Both the position numbers and the translations under genes were made by a program. Under the pieces are notes generated by a model that saw only the letters and a program-made list of their open reading frames with translations, was not told where the DNA came from and made no database searches. From Thiomicrorhabdus lithotrophica (GTDB lineage Bacteria; Pseudomonadota; Gammaproteobacteria; Thiomicrospirales; Thiomicrospiraceae): a stretch of DNA of 64,000 nt. Where the stretch lies: assembly GCF_029201445.1 (NCBI RefSeq), contig NZ_CP102381.1, positions 1,550,001 through 1,614,000 of the forward strand, in the 5' to 3' direction. The stretch's first letter is position 1, and the number at the start of each line of letters is the position of its first letter. This document shows, in pieces, positions 38,087-45,165 of this stretch.

Positions 38087-38458
38087 TTACCCTAAATGCT
38101 CCCTAATTTTACCTAAAAGATGTGCCGGACTAAAAGGCTTGACTAAATAATCCGTCGCGCCAGCGTATATACCTTCTTCTTTGTCCACGGTCTGTGTTTT
38201 AGCTGAAAGCATAAGTATCGTAGCCTCTTTGGTAACTGGAATTCTACGCAATTGTTTACAAACATCTATTCCATTCAACTCTCCAGGCATCATTACATCT
38301 AGAATGATTACATCAGGTATCTTTTTTTGAGCGATAGCTAGCGCCTCTACACCATTCTTTGCCTCTAGCACCTCAAAATCTTCTGCGGCAAGTGTCATTT
38401 TCACTAGCTTTCTTATCATTTCCTGATCATCAACAATCAGTATTTTTTTGATACTCAT
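38087..38458 (-). CDS. Single-domain response regulator
   Basis: A 123-residue CheY-like receiver: acidic pocket VDDQE near residue 10, phospho-acceptor Asp in VIILDVMMPG, Thr/Ser in ILMLSAKT and Lys in YLVKPFSP. No output domain. It lies 15 bases after the histidine kinase gene on the same strand, so it is its likely phosphorylation partner. AGAGGCG upstream is the ribosome binding site. Output must come by protein interaction, for example with the HTH-receiver protein or a downstream enzyme. Confidence 0.93.
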   Translation of the reverse strand: MSIKKILIVDDQEMIRKLVKMTLAAEDFEVLEAKNGVEALAIAQKKIPDVIILDVMMPGELNGIDVCKQLRRIPVTKEATILMLSAKTQTVDKEEGIYAGATDYLVKPFSPAHLLGKIREHLG

Positions 38459-38473
38459 AATAACGCCTCTACT

Positions 38474-40249
38474 CTATCTATAGAACTTAACAACAACTTC
38501 TGTTCCTCTACCTAATTCACTATTGACTTCAATAGTACCAGAATGCAATTCAATAATATCTTTAACGATTGACATCCCTAAGCCTGTTCCTGGAATTTCA
38601 CCACTCATATCGGCACGCCAAAACTTATCAAAAACATGTGAAACTTGCTCTTCTGTCATTCCAATACCTGAATCAACAACTCTAATCTCAACACCAGTAT
38701 TATTCTCAACTTCAGTTTCAAAATGTTCCACAAAAACATTCACACCGCCAATAGATGAATACTTATAAGCGTTAGAAACTAGGTTCAGTAATACTTGGTA
38801 AATACGATTAAAATCAACATTTACAGTCCCTAAGTCATTCGAATATTTAACCGAGATTGTTTCTCTACCCTCAGGAATTGCAAACGCCCTAATGACTTTA
38901 TCAACAATATCCACCACTAAAACTTGTTGGAAATCGAAATTTTGTGCCCCTTCGGTTTCAATTTTAGACACATCTAATAAGTCTCCAACTAAAGCAACAA
39001 CCCGCTGTGATTGAGTGTTAATAATCGTTGCTAATTCAACACGCATATCATCAGATACAGTTGGCGCTATGAGTAACTCACTAAAGCCCTGAACACTACT
39101 TAATGGTGTTCTTAACTCATGAGCGGCATGTGCTAAGAATTCAGATTTAAGTCGCTCGACCTCTTCTGTTTTGGTTAAATCCGTAAAGAAGAAGATACTA
39201 TGAATTTGAGTTTCGGTATCGTTGATAATCTTTTGACTAACATTAAGTAAACGTGTATTTGGTTTGGCAAAACGTATTTTCCAGTTATCATTTGAAACAT
39301 CTTCAATACCCTTAAACGTATCAATTAACCTCAACCATTTAACACTTTCATAATCATCAAAGTCGATCTCTTTCCTAATCATTTCAACAAAGGATTCATA
39401 GGTAGCGCCTTCAACAGATTTGTAACAATTAACCAAGTTCATGAAAGCAGGGTTAACCGTTAGTATGGTTCCATCTAATGAAAAAACAATCATTCCATCT
39501 TTAGTGTTATTAAAGATTTCTTCCAATTTCATTGAATTGGATTTCAATTTAATTTGTGTCTTAATTAAGGAAGCCGACATCTGATCAAATGCTTGTGAAA
39601 CCATCCCGATTTCATCATTAGCGTGATCGCCAATTTTTACTAGGTTTCCAGTATTCTTTACCTTAATTGCCACTTCTTTTAATTGCCCTAACCTGCGTGT
39701 TAGAACCCAACCTAAGAAAAATGAAAATAACGCTGACAAAAAAACCTCAACGATGGCAATCACTTTAATTCTGTGAGAAACATCATCTATAAAGGTTGAG
39801 AGCTTCTCAACCGAAAGCCCAAGCTCAACTTGCCCTATTTCAATATCATCAACCATTACAGGCTTAACCGTATCAAACACCCCGTCACGGTTTGCTTGTT
39901 CCAATGTATAATCTTGCTCAACTGACGTTGTTAGATACTTTTTATCACCCGCGAATGCGAATGTTTTACCTTCATCATTCTTGATATGCACATACACCAA
40001 ACCATCACTCTGTACCAGGCTGTCAATAAAGTGTTCTGTATTCCCTACATCGTAAGTCAAAAGTCCATTTCTGACCCATAATGCAATCAGTGAAGAGGTT
40101 TCATTTGAACGCGACTTGATCTGATTTTCATTGGTTTCATTCAATGAGTTAATACTCGTAAAATATATGATCGCTAACAGGATAGATTCAATAAACGCCA
40201 CACCCAAAATAGTTTTGATTTTAAAAGACATGTCTTTGAATTTGATCAT
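38474..40249 (-). CDS. Membrane sensor histidine kinase (HAMP-PAS-HisKA-HATPase)
   Basis: 591 residues: TM1 (12-30), periplasmic sensor with double-Cache-like character (about 31-165), TM2 (166-185), HAMP (187-238), PAS (245-365), HisKA with phospho-acceptor His in HAAHELRTPLSSVQGF (about 374-390), then HATPase with NLVSNAYKYS, DSGIGMT and GTGLGMSIV. It follows a PhnD-like binding-protein gene and precedes a CheY-like regulator. Such SBP-HK-RR triplets, like those with TorT or LuxP, use the SBP as the ligand detector for the kinase. AGGA precedes the ATG. Confidence 0.93.
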   Translation of the reverse strand: MIKFKDMSFKIKTILGVAFIESILLAIIYFTSINSLNETNENQIKSRSNETSSLIALWVRNGLLTYDVGNTEHFIDSLVQSDGLVYVHIKNDEGKTFAFAGDKKYLTTSVEQDYTLEQANRDGVFDTVKPVMVDDIEIGQVELGLSVEKLSTFIDDVSHRIKVIAIVEVFLSALFSFFLGWVLTRRLGQLKEVAIKVKNTGNLVKIGDHANDEIGMVSQAFDQMSASLIKTQIKLKSNSMKLEEIFNNTKDGMIVFSLDGTILTVNPAFMNLVNCYKSVEGATYESFVEMIRKEIDFDDYESVKWLRLIDTFKGIEDVSNDNWKIRFAKPNTRLLNVSQKIINDTETQIHSIFFFTDLTKTEEVERLKSEFLAHAAHELRTPLSSVQGFSELLIAPTVSDDMRVELATIINTQSQRVVALVGDLLDVSKIETEGAQNFDFQQVLVVDIVDKVIRAFAIPEGRETISVKYSNDLGTVNVDFNRIYQVLLNLVSNAYKYSSIGGVNVFVEHFETEVENNTGVEIRVVDSGIGMTEEQVSHVFDKFWRADMSGEIPGTGLGMSIVKDIIELHSGTIEVNSELGRGTEVVVKFYR

Positions 40250-40289
40250 GATAATCTATCCTGATTTATGTAAATCTATGAAGAAATCT

Positions 40290-41204
40290 TTAAGGTTGTG
40301 AAGATACTGATTTTAAATTATTGAGAATTTGGATATCTAACGCACGCACGTCATTCCAGTCGGAATTTTGTGCCGTCACAATACTTTTAAAATTAATACC
40401 CTTTAAAAGTATTTTCCCTTCTGCCGTGTTGGATAAATTCATCAATGCTTTTTGAACCTTCATTGAGACCTCTTTAGGTATTTTTGACGAAGATGCAAAT
40501 GCGTGAGGCGTATAGCCTTCTGTTGTCCAAATAATAGTCAACGGTTGTGTTATATCCTTACTCGCATTATTAAAGGTTCTTTCTATACCCCCACCTGCTT
40601 CAAAGTTTTGGTAATTCACATTTTTATACACCGACTCATGAGAAGAAACATATTTCGATTTAAACTTAATTCCACGTTTATTCAATATCGCTTGGGGAAC
40701 AACCGTTGCAGCAAATGCCGCTGGTGCTGGAAAAGCAATGGTTTTACCTTCTAAATCCTCTAGCGATTTAACCGTTGAATCCTTACGTGCAATAATAATA
40801 CCTTTTAGTTTCTTTTGTCCTTGCTTAGCAAAAGCACTATAACCAGAAACATCATGAAAAACGGTGTAGTGGTATGGGTTCATATAAGCAAAATCATAAG
40901 CCTGTTTAGACAACTGATGTTCAAACTTAGGAATTGTTTGGTTAGTTTTAAACACAAATTTATAACCCGTTTCTTTTTCTAAATATTTGAAAATTGGAAT
41001 CCACTTCTTCGCTAAAACCATGGCTGATTGCTGGGGAACCACACCAAAACTGTACGTTTTTTTGGCATCCATGTCATTATCAGTATCTGCATAAACAATA
41101 GCAGTGAACAGTAAAATATTAAGAAAGAATAAAATAATTAAAAAGTTTGAAATTGAATTACCGCTTAGAGCATTACCCAAGACTAAAACTATTATTTTTT
41201 TCAT
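40290..41204 (-). CDS. PhnD-like periplasmic substrate-binding protein
   Basis: A ~304-residue phosphonate/phosphite-type SBP: a long N-terminal membrane/signal segment, then YSFGVVPQQSAMVLAKKWIPI, the FAYMNPYHYTVF ligand-binding region, and DLEGKTIAFPAPAAFAATVVP. No permease or ATPase genes accompany it. Placed between a PAS protein and the histidine kinase, it is more likely a sensor subunit. The start at 41204 has AAGGG 8 bases upstream and is better than the ATG at 41225. Ligand unknown; PhnD-like SBPs also bind sulfur- or arsenic-oxyanions in other systems. Confidence 0.85.
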   Translation of the reverse strand: MKKIIVLVLGNALSGNSISNFLIILFFLNILLFTAIVYADTDNDMDAKKTYSFGVVPQQSAMVLAKKWIPIFKYLEKETGYKFVFKTNQTIPKFEHQLSKQAYDFAYMNPYHYTVFHDVSGYSAFAKQGQKKLKGIIIARKDSTVKSLEDLEGKTIAFPAPAAFAATVVPQAILNKRGIKFKSKYVSSHESVYKNVNYQNFEAGGGIERTFNNASKDITQPLTIIWTTEGYTPHAFASSSKIPKEVSMKVQKALMNLSNTAEGKILLKGINFKSIVTAQNSDWNDVRALDIQILNNLKSVSSQP

Positions 41205-41242
41205 TTTACTACCCTTAAAAATCATTACGTTGCCTGCAAGCT

Positions 41243-41668
41243 TTAGTTGAACTCATAATAAACATCTAAATCGTTGGAGGCCATTTCCCTATGATCCTTC
41301 TGTTCAACTTGAGAGAGCGGTTCAAAGTTCATTAATGCATACATCTCCTTGGCATTACGAACAGATAACTTATCCAATTGGAAAAATCTTACTTCAAAAG
41401 TATGCCCTAAAGATGGGGTGTCTAGCACTTGAAAGTTTACGTTTAACCAACAAACCTTCTGATTTAAGCTTATATGTAAAATATAGCAGTTACTTAATCC
41501 ATTGTGGCAGTGCTCTTTTAACTCATCAATCACATTGCTTGGAACAGTATTGGGAACCATATCCAAAAAATTAGTGCCTAATAAATCCTCTTCAAGTAAA
41601 TCAAATTTCTTTAAAAAGTTTTTACTGACCTCAATTAATTCCAAGTTTTGATTAAGCTTTAAATTCAT
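41243..41668 (-). CDS. Stand-alone PAS-like protein, paralogue 1
   Basis: A 141-residue protein that is essentially one PAS fold: LNQNLELIEVSKNFLKKFDL (the beta-A/B entry), LGTNFLDMVPNTVPSNVIDELKEHC helices and WLNVNFQVLDTP strand, plus a short acidic tail. It resembles the protein at 44680-45120 (shared VSKNF, FL-x-MV, VP, and a Trp in the beta-sheet), so the two are paralogues bracketing the cluster. First gene of the PAS-PhnD-HK-RR operon. Cofactor binding is not evident. It may bind a partner of the kinase or report redox state. Confidence 0.72.
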   Translation of the reverse strand: MNLKLNQNLELIEVSKNFLKKFDLLEEDLLGTNFLDMVPNTVPSNVIDELKEHCHNGLSNCYILHISLNQKVCWLNVNFQVLDTPSLGHTFEVRFFQLDKLSVRNAKEMYALMNFEPLSQVEQKDHREMASNDLDVYYEFN

Positions 41669-41770
41669 ATTACATATTGGCCTTTTGAATTTATCAAACC
41701 ATGCATTTTGTAGGATTATTTAATTACAGGTAAATAATACCTCAAACCAACATCTGCTTCAATCACTTTA

Positions 41771-41788
41771 TTCGTTTTGTTCGTTTTA
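41771..41788 (+). promoter_or_regulatory. Tandem TTCGTTTTR repeats, site A
   Basis: Two head-to-tail 9-bp units, TTCGTTTTG and TTCGTTTTA, between the divergent PAS and rhodanese genes. They sit 3 bases upstream of a TATAAT at 41792-41797, so they overlap the expected -35 region of the rhodanese promoter. Confidence 0.7.
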
Positions 41789-41826
41789 ATGTATAATGGC
41801 ACTTCATTCATTAATACACGATTAAC

Positions 41827-42246
41827 ATGCTTATGAAACACATTACTTTTTTTATTCTCTTTTTTGTATTTACAAACCTTTATGCCAATTCAGAAGAATC
41901 CATTATTCACTCAAACATTCATGACTATTTAGATTTTGCAAGCTATGCGGATGGGGACATAACCCCTGAACAATTAAATGCAGAAAAGAAAGCCTTTATT
42001 ATCGACACAAGAAAAAACAAAGATTTTATTAAAGGAAATATACCAAACTCGGTCAATATTGAATGGCGTAACACATTGAATAATATTAACAAAATACCAA
42101 AAGATGAATTAATTGTTGTTTATTGTGATACAGGGATACTTTCATCAAAATCGCATTTAATCCTCAAGCTTTTGGGCTGGAATAACGTACATGTTTTATT
42201 TGGTGGATATCAAAATTGGTTAAAGTTTGAGGAGACTTTAAAATAA
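41827..42246 (+). CDS. Exported rhodanese-domain protein
   Basis: A 139-residue protein: signal peptide (ends near LYANS), then a rhodanese domain with FIIDTRKNKDFIKGNIPNSVNI and the active-site loop VYCDTGILSSKSHLIL, with Cys as the likely sulfur acceptor, and a C-terminal GGYQNW. It could act on thiosulfate, persulfides or selenium/arsenic species in the periplasm, or serve as a sulfur-carrier sensor. Transcribed divergently from the sensor operon and preceded by site A. Two starts, 41827 and 41833, are possible. Confidence 0.85.
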   Translation: MLMKHITFFILFFVFTNLYANSEESIIHSNIHDYLDFASYADGDITPEQLNAEKKAFIIDTRKNKDFIKGNIPNSVNIEWRNTLNNINKIPKDELIVVYCDTGILSSKSHLILKLLGWNNVHVLFGGYQNWLKFEETLK

Positions 42247-42344
42247 TAAAAAAATAACCAAGTTCGATTCCAATCAAAACTATTTTTGTTTCTTTTTTAA
42301 TAGCTTTGTTTTTTACCAATCTGCACAAGCAAAAAAATCTTTAA

Positions 42345-42362
42345 TTCGTTTTATTCGTATAA
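42345..42362 (+). promoter_or_regulatory. Tandem TTCGTTTTR repeats, site B
   Basis: TTCGTTTTA followed by TTCGTATAA, 48 bases before the orphan gene at 42410; the same 9-bp period as sites A, C and D. Confidence 0.65.
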
Positions 42363-42409
42363 ACTTATTTTTTCTTAGAATCCAAATAAAGACGACCATA
42401 CTTAACACT

Positions 42410-42898
42410 ATGAAAAACCCACTATTAAGACAACGTATTGACATTAATACCCTAAACAATGATGTGATTAACGCCTGCGTCAGTGATTTTCTTATTCAAA
42501 GCCAGGATGTTTACATTCAAAACAAACCAATCAATATTGAACGTTTTTTAAATCCTGCTATTTTTCAATATTATGCTGCTTACAGTGCTTTTCTAAATCT
42601 AGGTAAAAACACCCTAGCGCCACCTGAAATGATTGAAGTAAATAAGGAGGTTTATATGGTGGAGGCGAGTTCTAGCTATCTTTATAAAGAATCGAGCATG
42701 CACGACACCATTCTTACAATTGAGTTCAACTGCATCAAAATTGAAGATTCCATTCTTCACCATTTAGACAGTGAACAAATTTTTAAGCGGAGAGCGAATC
42801 AAATTCAGTTGAAAGCCGCCTATGAACAGGTTCAACTTTTACTCGATGAAAAATCAAAAAAAGTACATAGCGATATTGATTATTTAAATTACTTATAA
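42410..42898 (+). CDS. Orphan cytoplasmic protein, paralogue A
   Basis: A 162-residue soluble protein with no recognised domain. Its C-terminal third (IQLKAAYEQVQLLLDEKSKK) is a predicted helix that resembles the end of the following gene's product (MQLAAAFEELNRLSSQSE), so the two look like diverged tandem paralogues. The middle has a beta-rich segment (EVYMVEASSSYLY). The first gene of a three-gene run (42410-43672) under repeat site B. A partner of the PAS/receiver proteins is possible. Confidence 0.6.
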   Translation: MKNPLLRQRIDINTLNNDVINACVSDFLIQSQDVYIQNKPINIERFLNPAIFQYYAAYSAFLNLGKNTLAPPEMIEVNKEVYMVEASSSYLYKESSMHDTILTIEFNCIKIEDSILHHLDSEQIFKRRANQIQLKAAYEQVQLLLDEKSKKVHSDIDYLNYL

Positions 42899-42908
42899 AA
42901 GGAAAATT

Positions 42909-43391
42909 ATGCCTTCTGATAATCAAATTCTTACTTTAAAACTTAACTCTGAAAATAAAATAATACATGCTCAACCCGAAAAGCATTACTTTCTTGTTAA
43001 TAAAGAGTCGCTAAAGCTTTGCAATAGTGAACTACATAAAACCATCAAAACAGAATTGTATGAGTACTTCTTAAATCACTCATACACAATACAAAGCAAT
43101 AAACAATTCGGTTCTTATCCTGCAGAGATAATTTTCATGGATGGAGTTAAATACCTTGTGCAACTTCATTATGAAAACAAGGTAATTAATCTTGATAATT
43201 TAAAAACCATTTTATATTTCAACTTTATTAATATTGAAAGCTATTCCAAAGGAAGAAATTTGGTGGGCAGCTATCTTGAAGATAAGGCTATAGAAATGCA
43301 ATTAGCCGCCGCTTTTGAAGAATTAAACCGATTATCTTCACAAAGTGAATACTGGAACACAGAAGACACCAATCTTTTTAAAAAACTATAA
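42909..43391 (+). CDS. Orphan cytoplasmic protein, paralogue B
   Basis: A 160-residue protein starting 10 bases after paralogue A, with an AAGGA ribosome binding site. Its first segment (QILTLKLNSENKIIHAQPEKHYFLVN) is PAS-like in pattern: a strand, Asn, Ile turn, then a helix (LCNSELHKTIKTELYEYF). Together with the middle strands (VKYLVQLHYENKV) it may be another diverged PAS protein. The C-terminal helix MQLAAAFEELNRLS matches paralogue A. Otherwise unrecognised. Confidence 0.6.
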   Translation: MPSDNQILTLKLNSENKIIHAQPEKHYFLVNKESLKLCNSELHKTIKTELYEYFLNHSYTIQSNKQFGSYPAEIIFMDGVKYLVQLHYENKVINLDNLKTILYFNFINIESYSKGRNLVGSYLEDKAIEMQLAAAFEELNRLSSQSEYWNTEDTNLFKKL

Positions 43392-43405
43392 GATGGAACC
43401 TAACC

Positions 43406-43672
43406 ATGACAAGTTTTCTAACTGAAGCAGAACTAAGCATATTATTGATGGATAATACTAAGTTCCAAAAAACTACCGACTACCAACTAGAAGAACTGTT
43501 CATGATTGGCCAGACACCGATATATTCATTAATAAACCAGGTTAATTTTACCTTTACAAACAATGTAACAATCCCACTATGCCAAGACTTATTAACCTAT
43601 TTGGATGTCCAGGTATCGGCCACTGGAACCCTTTACCCTAATGAATTGAAAAAAATGAAAAGCACTCTGTAA
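43406..43672 (+). CDS. Short orphan protein, 88 aa
   Basis: An 88-residue protein 14 bases after paralogue B, with GGAA upstream. It is acidic and helical at its N-terminus (FLTEAELSILLMDNTKFQ) and has no recognised domain. Close spacing argues for one operon with the two preceding genes. Confidence 0.5.
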   Translation: MTSFLTEAELSILLMDNTKFQKTTDYQLEELFMIGQTPIYSLINQVNFTFTNNVTIPLCQDLLTYLDVQVSATGTLYPNELKKMKSTL

Positions 43673-43993
43673 TAGATAATCTTAATTCTAAGCCAGAATA
43701 GGATGCCGGTAAAACTCCAAGAACTATAAAAATAAGCATATCCTCACTATCAAGATTAAATACTTACGGCTTACGCTCACAAAAGCGCTTTATTCTTTAT
43801 TGATGAGATGATCAAATCTCTGTAAAAACATTATTTTTACTGAAGTTCATAAGGTTTATAAACATTAGTATCTTATTGAGTGGCTATGCACAATAGTAAT
43901 TTCAGGATAGGTGTAGAGAAAGGTTGACTAGAGTCATTATATTAAAACAGCAATACCTTTAACCTTTGAGAATGGTTATTGACTAAAAAATAG
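43673..43993. other. Gene-free gap between convergent operons
   Basis: 321 bases of AT-rich sequence without a convincing ORF, hairpin terminator or repeat. A short inverted motif near 43787 (AAAGCGCTTT) is the only local symmetry. Confidence 0.6.
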
Positions 43994-44578
43994 TTATACT
44001 TTTTTTAACGCATATTCATACTGCATAAACTGTTTTACAACATCTAAATTTAGTGGTTTATTCATTAAAACAACATCATAGGGTAATCTCTCCCTATCAA
44101 TCTCGTTTAATCCGTCTGCCGTAATGACAATAATTGTACTGGATTTCGTATTTTCATATTCTCTCAGAACTTTTATTGCTTCATAACCATCCATTAATGG
44201 CATATTCAGATCAACAAAAATCATATCAAATACGCCTTGACCGGCTTTAATCAGACCTTCATAGCCATTAACCGCTGAAACAATATCTATAGCCGGGAGT
44301 GAAGGATCTTTAACAAGGCTGGTAAAAATGCTCTGGATAACAGCATCATCATCGACAACCATAACCTTTAAAGAACGCGTTTCTGCTTGAGCTTTAATCA
44401 CACCCTGCTCTTGGTGTTTTTGCTCTATCGAACTTCGCTTTATTCTTCGGTGTCCGCCAGGCGTTTTCCAAGTCTCTAATTCACCACTATCAGCCATTCT
44501 TTTGATAATGGTTTTAGAAACTTGCAAAATTTCACAGGCTTCGGACGTCGTTATAAATTCATCATCTTTATCAAGCAA
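43994..44578 (-). CDS. Excisionase/MerR-like HTH fused to a receiver domain
   Basis: 194 residues. An N-terminal winged helix of the excisionase type ([20 protein letters not shown] and [16 protein letters not shown], residues 7-52) is followed by a linker and a receiver domain ([14 protein letters not shown], phospho-Asp in [13 protein letters not shown], Lys in MNKPLNL). Response regulators usually have the receiver first; this reversed order is unusual. No ATG fits; TTG at 44578 after GAGAG is the likely start. It is a strong candidate for the protein that binds the TTCGTTTTR repeats, one copy of which lies just upstream. Confidence 0.85.
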
Positions 44579-44614
44579 CAGTCATTCTCTCTATATTAAA
44601 CATTAAAACACGCT

Positions 44615-44632
44615 TAAAACGAATCAAACGAA
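44615..44632 (-). promoter_or_regulatory. Tandem TTCGTTTTR repeats, site C
   Basis: On the minus strand: TTCGTTTGA followed directly by TTCGTTTTA, 37 bases upstream of the HTH-receiver gene. Confidence 0.68.
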
Positions 44633-44679
44633 CGTGAATTATAGTTCAATTCTGGAAAAATTAACAAACCTATCAACTT

Positions 44680-45120
44680 CTATTTAACTCTACAATCCCA
44701 ACGCTCCATTGAAACCGCTTGATTAGAGTGATTATTTTGAACAGGCCAACCTTGTTTCATAGACATTTCTCCTTGAGAAATCTTACTATATACTGAAGCT
44801 GTCGTATCAATATCACTCGCTGTTATATGTTGTAATACGGCCTGATAGCCGACGTTATTACCACCTTCAAATCTAGGGCTAATACTGACATCGAACCAGT
44901 CTGGATTAGCTAATACATTGACCTTAAGAGTAACGTTATAAACCAAACCTTTTTTGAGACTATCATATAAGTCTTCTGCAAGCTGATCTGGCACTTCACA
45001 ATCAACCATACTTAAGAAAAAACAACTTTTAAGAGACCTAGCCTGATCTCTCATTAAAACCTTAAAGTTTTTAGATACAGCATCAATTGTTAAATCTTTA
45101 TTGAGATTTATAAGCAGCAT
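44680..45120 (-). CDS. Stand-alone PAS-like protein, paralogue 2
   Basis: A 146-residue protein with a PAS core: LNKDLTIDAVSKNFKVLM, CFFLSMVDCEVPDQLAEDL, a beta-sheet WFDVSISPRFEG and VGYQAVLQHIT, plus a Ser/Gln-rich C-terminal tail. It shares the VSKNF entry and Trp-containing strand with the 41243-41668 protein. AAAAGGG precedes the ATG. Three TTCGTTTTR-type units lie immediately upstream, between promoter region and start. Confidence 0.72.
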   Translation of the reverse strand: MLLINLNKDLTIDAVSKNFKVLMRDQARSLKSCFFLSMVDCEVPDQLAEDLYDSLKKGLVYNVTLKVNVLANPDWFDVSISPRFEGGNNVGYQAVLQHITASDIDTTASVYSKISQGEMSMKQGWPVQNNHSNQAVSMERWDCRVK

Positions 45121-45138
45121 AATAAAGCCCTTTTACAA

Positions 45139-45165
45139 AAAAACGAACACAAAGAACAAAACGAA
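45139..45165 (-). promoter_or_regulatory. Triple TTCGTTTTR repeats, site D
   Basis: On the minus strand: TTCGTTTTG, TTCTTTGTG and TTCGTTTTT head to tail with a 9-bp period, ending 18 bases before the ATG of PAS paralogue 2. This position downstream of a plausible promoter suggests repression. Confidence 0.68.

Follow-up and report, generated by a model that had tools for sequence, protein, structure and literature searches.

Known regulators for comparison

The closest described relative of the system considered here is BldC of Streptomyces (PDB 6amk and 6ama). Its protomers each bind one 9-bp direct repeat and are arranged head to tail along the DNA; Arg30 contacts the YpG step of the repeat, while His46 lies in the AT-rich minor groove (PMC5859096). 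The authors of that paper know of no other MerR-like regulator with direct repeats as its binding sites (PMC5859096). This study concerns a group of tandem 9-bp repeats with the consensus TTCGTTTTR in Thiomicrorhabdus lithotrophica, and a protein of 194 residues encoded among them, which combines an N-terminal helix-turn-helix (HTH) domain with a C-terminal receiver domain. The repeats lie in a stretch of 64,000 nucleotides (contig NZ_CP102381.1, positions 1,550,001 to 1,614,000), referred to below as the window and numbered from its first base. The repeats are probably the operators of the HTH-receiver protein, which would bind head to tail on 9-bp units and govern an autoregulated local sensing circuit; we put the probability of this reading at about 0.78.

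The arrays of the window resemble those of BldC in being 9-bp direct repeats with an AT-rich element, a YpG step and a variable number of copies, and both proteins have a winged HTH with a GGHRR wing. The letters of the unit differ, and BldC is a stand-alone protein of 68 residues, whereas the 194-residue protein has a receiver domain and a kinase operon nearby. The HTH_17-type fold is also common to excisionases such as Pukovnik Xis (4j2n) and RdfS (8dgl; PMC11963761). RdfS and other winged HTH proteins form head-to-tail chains (PMC11963761). Xis and RdfS are, however, recombination factors that lack a receiver, and RdfS has no consensus motif, in contrast to the clearly phased units of the HTH-receiver family. 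Classical MerR proteins (SoxR, CueR, CarH) possess a related winged HTH and act as symmetric dimers on palindromes; neither the dimerisation domain nor the palindrome is found here, where all sites are direct repeats and a receiver comes after the HTH. OmpR/PhoP-type regulators likewise combine a receiver with a DNA-binding domain, and some of them bind direct repeats (PMC5859096). They differ from the 194-residue protein in that the latter has its receiver at the C-terminus, a MerR/BldC-like HTH at the N-terminus, and arrays that are phased at 9 bp and can be long.

Tandem sites at the locus

Tandems of TTCGTTTTR are present at all four places where the first-pass annotation had reported them; one is exact and the others are degenerate. 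Compared with the 18-mer formed by two units, the site at 41771-41788 (plus strand) has no mismatch, that at 44615-44632 (minus) has one, and that at 42345-42362 (plus) has two, its second unit reading TTCGTATAA. The site at 45139-45165 (minus) had been counted as three units; two of these are good, but the middle one is poor (TTCTTTGTG), hence the two to three mismatches per unit pair. In the register of the HTH-receiver family the unit reads AAYAAAACG (equivalent to CGTTTTRTT), and the 41771 site then has a third, weaker unit.

The cluster of sites is real. Within the window there are seven matches at up to three mismatches, against 0.82 expected from shuffled sequence (maximum 4 in 100 shuffles). 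The tandem had been thought confined to this part of the window, and indeed the only other match at that tolerance (35678) falls inside a GGDEF-EAL gene. The genome-wide search that had been proposed as a check finds seven sites at up to two mismatches in 2.5 Mb, four of them within the 3.4 kb of this locus (rough clustering probability 3e-6). The other three fall within open reading frames (ORFs), as do the additional matches to a looser pattern; sites at 151264, 185195 and 2505975 of the genome were rejected, as they lie inside genes. At up to three mismatches the genome (G000) holds 47 sites, no more than the 54 of a reversed-pattern control, so that only the local cluster is meaningful. 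There is thus no sign of a distant regulon in this genome, and no distant members are claimed. No Rfam family matches the DNA between 38 and 47 kb of the window.

The motif follows the protein

G023, G064, G068 and L073 (Hydrogenovibrio sp. JE_KL2) encode orthologues of the HTH-receiver protein, with about 45 to 52% identity to it, that carry the motif in their own promoters amid different neighbouring genes. An exact ACGAAYAAAAYGAAYAAA occurs once in the T. lithotrophica genome, at this locus, and once each in G023 and G068, where it stands in the orthologue's own promoter; in G064 and L073 it is found at the orthologue in exact or degenerate form. The motif at the own promoter is the best match of the whole genome in two of the orthologue genomes. 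Since the orthologue promoters keep ACGAAYAAAAYGAAYAAA or a near copy of it amid differing genes, the motif appears to follow the protein and not the neighbourhood. In G064 and L073 a second, weaker 9-bp array precedes an adjacent operon that encodes a PAS-containing methyl-accepting chemotaxis protein and CheW (L073:5067-7621; L220:5439-8000).

A 9-bp period across the family

The homologue in G038 has five copies of TCGGAAATA directly after a TTGACA-16-TATGAT promoter, which suggests that the period is conserved rather than the letters. The period was followed in about 130 homologues across Pseudomonadota, divided into a discovery set of 73 upstream intergenic regions and a second sample of 57 from other genomes, for which period and threshold were fixed beforehand. 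Direct repeats of period 9 exceed the threshold in 21 of the 73 discovery regions, where other periods account for 1 to 6 and the harmonic at 18 for 8. As controls served the regions upstream of other genes at these loci, of which 12/138 show period 9 (Fisher p 2.5e-4). In the second sample period 9 is found in 39/57 regions, with 1 to 8 for other periods and 18 for the harmonic period 18. Taken over both samples, periods other than 9 yield about 3. Against an order-1 Markov null at a stricter threshold, the counts are 34 versus 1.1 and 13 versus 1.1, compared with 8 versus 2.0 for the controls.

The unit of the family consists of an AT-rich part followed by a YG step, which AAYAAAACG in the window fits. 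About three or more contiguous units are present in 39 of 46 arrays, and the arrays of relatives reach about nine. A promoter geometry common to the family is only suggestive: among 31 arrays, 16 share bases with the core promoter, with 6 upstream of it and 9 downstream. A fixed orientation of the array relative to the gene was also considered and dropped, the split being 20 to 19 once both strands are allowed. The longest regular operator seen is at L291, where an almost perfect array with about 7.5 copies of TTTGCAAGA extends from 177 to 109 bases before the HTH-receiver start; it would make a good substrate for structural work.

The letters of the unit differ between clades, and they vary together with the recognition helix. 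In 46 arrays (sequence counts, with statistics that ignore kinship), Tyr at the helix position of R27 in the window protein, which corresponds to BldC Arg30, goes with TTGC units (9/11 versus 1/35), Leu at the same position with TGAT units (12/17 versus 0/29), and Lys one position earlier with CG units (7/7 versus 9/39). L093, with Q-Y, is apparently a separate case. Such covariation is expected if the HTH-receiver protein reads the units. With the motif following the protein and 9-bp arrays upstream of its homologues, this makes the local regulon of the first-pass annotation, with the HTH-receiver protein as predicted binder, the reading best supported at the sequence level.

Fold and conserved residues of the HTH-receiver protein

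The protein (43994..44578, minus strand, TTG start) matches Pfam HTH_17 (6.7e-11) and Response_reg (1e-13). Because a fold search with the full length is swamped by receiver domains, a model of the HTH alone was used (predicted local distance difference test score 82.9). In Foldseek, BldC chains (6amk, 6ama) occupy ranks 1-7 (E 2.5e-3 to 6.4e-3, template-modelling score about 0.6-0.77). By Z score, Pukovnik Xis is highest at 8.9, and BldC 6ama_A reaches 8.1 (2.4 Å over 54 residues). The model thus predicts a BldC-like winged HTH. BldC residues E16, R30, G44 and H46 are kept as E13, R27, G41 and H43, including both DNA-contacting side chains mentioned above, while R22 and K26 are replaced by Q19 and T23.

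In the receiver domain (fold Z about 18), the phospho-acceptor D123 and K174 are invariant among 39 homologues and D77 is nearly so; a receiver with a conserved phosphorylation site marks the protein as a two-component response regulator. A modelled helix at residues 48-66 joins the two domains.

Predicted promoters and transcripts served

Each array had been assigned to one transcript, namely the rhodanese gene, a three-gene orphan operon, the HTH-receiver gene and the second of two PAS-only genes (PAS2). These four assignments hold, but the site at 41771-41788 also serves a fifth, divergent transcript, the operon that encodes PAS1, a PhnD-type protein, a histidine kinase (HK) and a receiver protein (REC). 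This divergent regulatory region (41734..41788) comprises a minus-strand array ATTAAAACG-AACAAAACG-AATAAAGTG, which on the plus strand reads TTCGTTTTG-TTCGTTTTA at 41771-41788. The array adjoins the −35 element (TTGAAG) of the PAS1-PhnD-HK-REC operon, whose predicted promoter is TTGAAG-17-TATTAT at 41762-41734 (minus); the rhodanese gene has a TATAAT downstream of the array on the plus strand. The arrangement ACGAATAAA-N4-TTGA has identical spacing in the window and at the G023 orthologue, whose promoter is followed by a second array.

The two-unit array at 44615-44632 (minus) is the predicted autoregulatory site of the HTH-receiver gene, upstream of which a copy had been noted. It stands directly after the −10 element of the putative promoter TTGTTA-18-TATAAT at 44667-44638 (minus). 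The three-unit array with the degenerate middle unit at 45139-45165 (minus) covers the predicted PAS2 transcription start; here the candidate promoter is TTGTGA-17-TATAGT, with a preceding TG, at 45193-45165 (minus). The array at 42345-42362 (plus), with two units, precedes the orphan operon.

Proposed mechanism and alternatives

The sites, their conservation, the 9-bp period and the covariation with the recognition helix can be read from sequence directly. In the mechanism that we infer for binding, oligomerisation, direction of regulation and kinase partner, each subunit would occupy one 9-bp unit (here AAYAAAACG, with its YpG step and A-tract). Subunits would line up head to tail, with two or three at each site of the window and as many as about nine in relatives. 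Phosphorylation of the receiver at D123, for which the presumed kinase is the one encoded in the divergent PAS1-PhnD-HK-REC operon, would tune the assembly. Sites over the start regions of the HTH-receiver gene and PAS2 suggest repression of these two, whereas the position of a site next to the −35 points to activation of the PAS1-PhnD-HK-REC operon. The result would be a self-contained, autoregulated sensing circuit.

Several observations weigh against this picture. As far as sequence can tell, the 194-residue protein would act like BldC, yet it is not a member of the BldC family as curated, which consists of small stand-alone proteins without an effector domain: the curated hidden Markov model (NCBIfam NF033787) gives 30.7 bits (E 2.1e-7) and its cut-off of 77 bits is not reached. 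The hydrophobic core of the BldC head-tail contact is only partly kept (L43 becomes P40, W31 becomes M28, F21 becomes L18). Close orthologues in G036, G062 and the Thiomicrospira group have no clear upstream array, and similar unit pairs occur outside ORFs, at a low rate, in genomes that lack the regulator (L189, L199). The promoter calls are consensus matches only, in numbers scarcely above those in shuffled sequence, and shared descent may inflate the covariation.

Response regulators usually dimerise via their receivers. The HTH-receiver protein might bind in another geometry, for instance with each receiver-mediated dimer on a pair of units instead of in a BldC-type chain, and the frequency of two-unit sites in the window and the incomplete BldC core would suit this. 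We consider it unlikely, though the most credible of the alternatives: relatives have arrays in which 3 to 9 units are contiguous, which speaks for a chain, and both the fold and the 9-bp spacing match BldC. Less likely again is that the sites are operators of another DNA-binding protein, such as an OmpR/PhoP-type regulator or a nucleoid protein, with the HTH-receiver gene as merely another target. Direct-repeat binding by some other response regulators (PMC5859096) and the affinity of nucleoid proteins for AT-rich tracts favour such a protein, but it would not account for a motif that accompanies the HTH-receiver gene across differing neighbourhoods, for a 9-bp phasing specific to the upstream regions of this family and not to other genes of the same loci, or for unit letters that covary with its recognition helix. 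Chance pairs of TTCGTTTT in AT-rich intergenic DNA would agree with the background-level genome counts at three mismatches, but the excess and clustering of good sites in the window, their conservation in orthologue promoters and the replication across the family make this very improbable.

Beyond this locus, the findings point, with somewhat better than even odds, to a widespread and undescribed class of HTH_17-receiver regulators that form BldC-like filaments, head to tail, on 9-bp units repeated from 2 to about 9 times at their own promoters, with helix residues setting the letters and phosphorylation controlling growth. No earlier description of response regulators with an HTH_17/MerR/BldC-type domain was found in the open-access literature, and earlier work may exist. 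If such a class exists, the BldC mode would extend to a large group of response regulators under control by phosphorylation, and the 9-bp periodicity would allow their target sites to be predicted. Proteins seen here only as a generic excisionase-type HTH plus receiver would gain operators and a first specificity code, and a kinase could switch filament growth on DNA.

Genes of the locus

The divergent operon starts with PAS1 (41243..41668, minus), a PAS-only protein of 141 residues with a weak PAS_9 match and similarity to PAS2. It continues with the PhnD-type periplasmic binding protein (40290..41225, minus; Phosphonate-bd 1.7e-59), a presumed sensor accessory with PtxB and ArrX as PDB relatives, the HAMP-PAS sensor histidine kinase identified by domain search (38474..40249, minus) and the stand-alone receiver protein (38087..38458, minus). 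In another genome (G033), counterparts of these four genes (38087-41668) are again adjacent (L065:5535-9046), with PhnD proteins 56% identical and receiver proteins 49% identical. There the PhnD, kinase, PAS, REC and HTH-REC genes form a single run, which gives the genes at the present locus the appearance of a single sensing module. The HTH-receiver sequence of G033 is the N-terminus of a 1824-residue open frame (L065:9084-14558), in which Pfam matches only HTH_17 and a partial receiver, leaving about 1680 residues without a match. PAS2 (44680..45120, minus; 146 residues, PAS-only) matches parts of large signalling proteins as well as the PAS-only protein of the G033 operon.

The PAS1-PhnD-kinase-REC operon is possibly an oxyanion-sensing system related to ArrX/PtxB-type proteins. 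A sulfur-related oxyanion as the signal, which is a guess, would suit the rhodanese gene (41827..42246, plus; Rhodanese 4e-16), whose product has a signal-like N-terminal segment. The orphan operon (42410..43672, plus) encodes proteins of 162, 160 and 88 residues without a confident Pfam family; the first two are weakly alike, and the 160-residue protein was found in a single genome among 62 from the order, namely that of the window. Finally, the TTG-start frame of the HTH-receiver gene overlaps a four-codon ATG ORF (ATGACTGTTGCTTGA) at 44574-44588, which is a possible translational leader.

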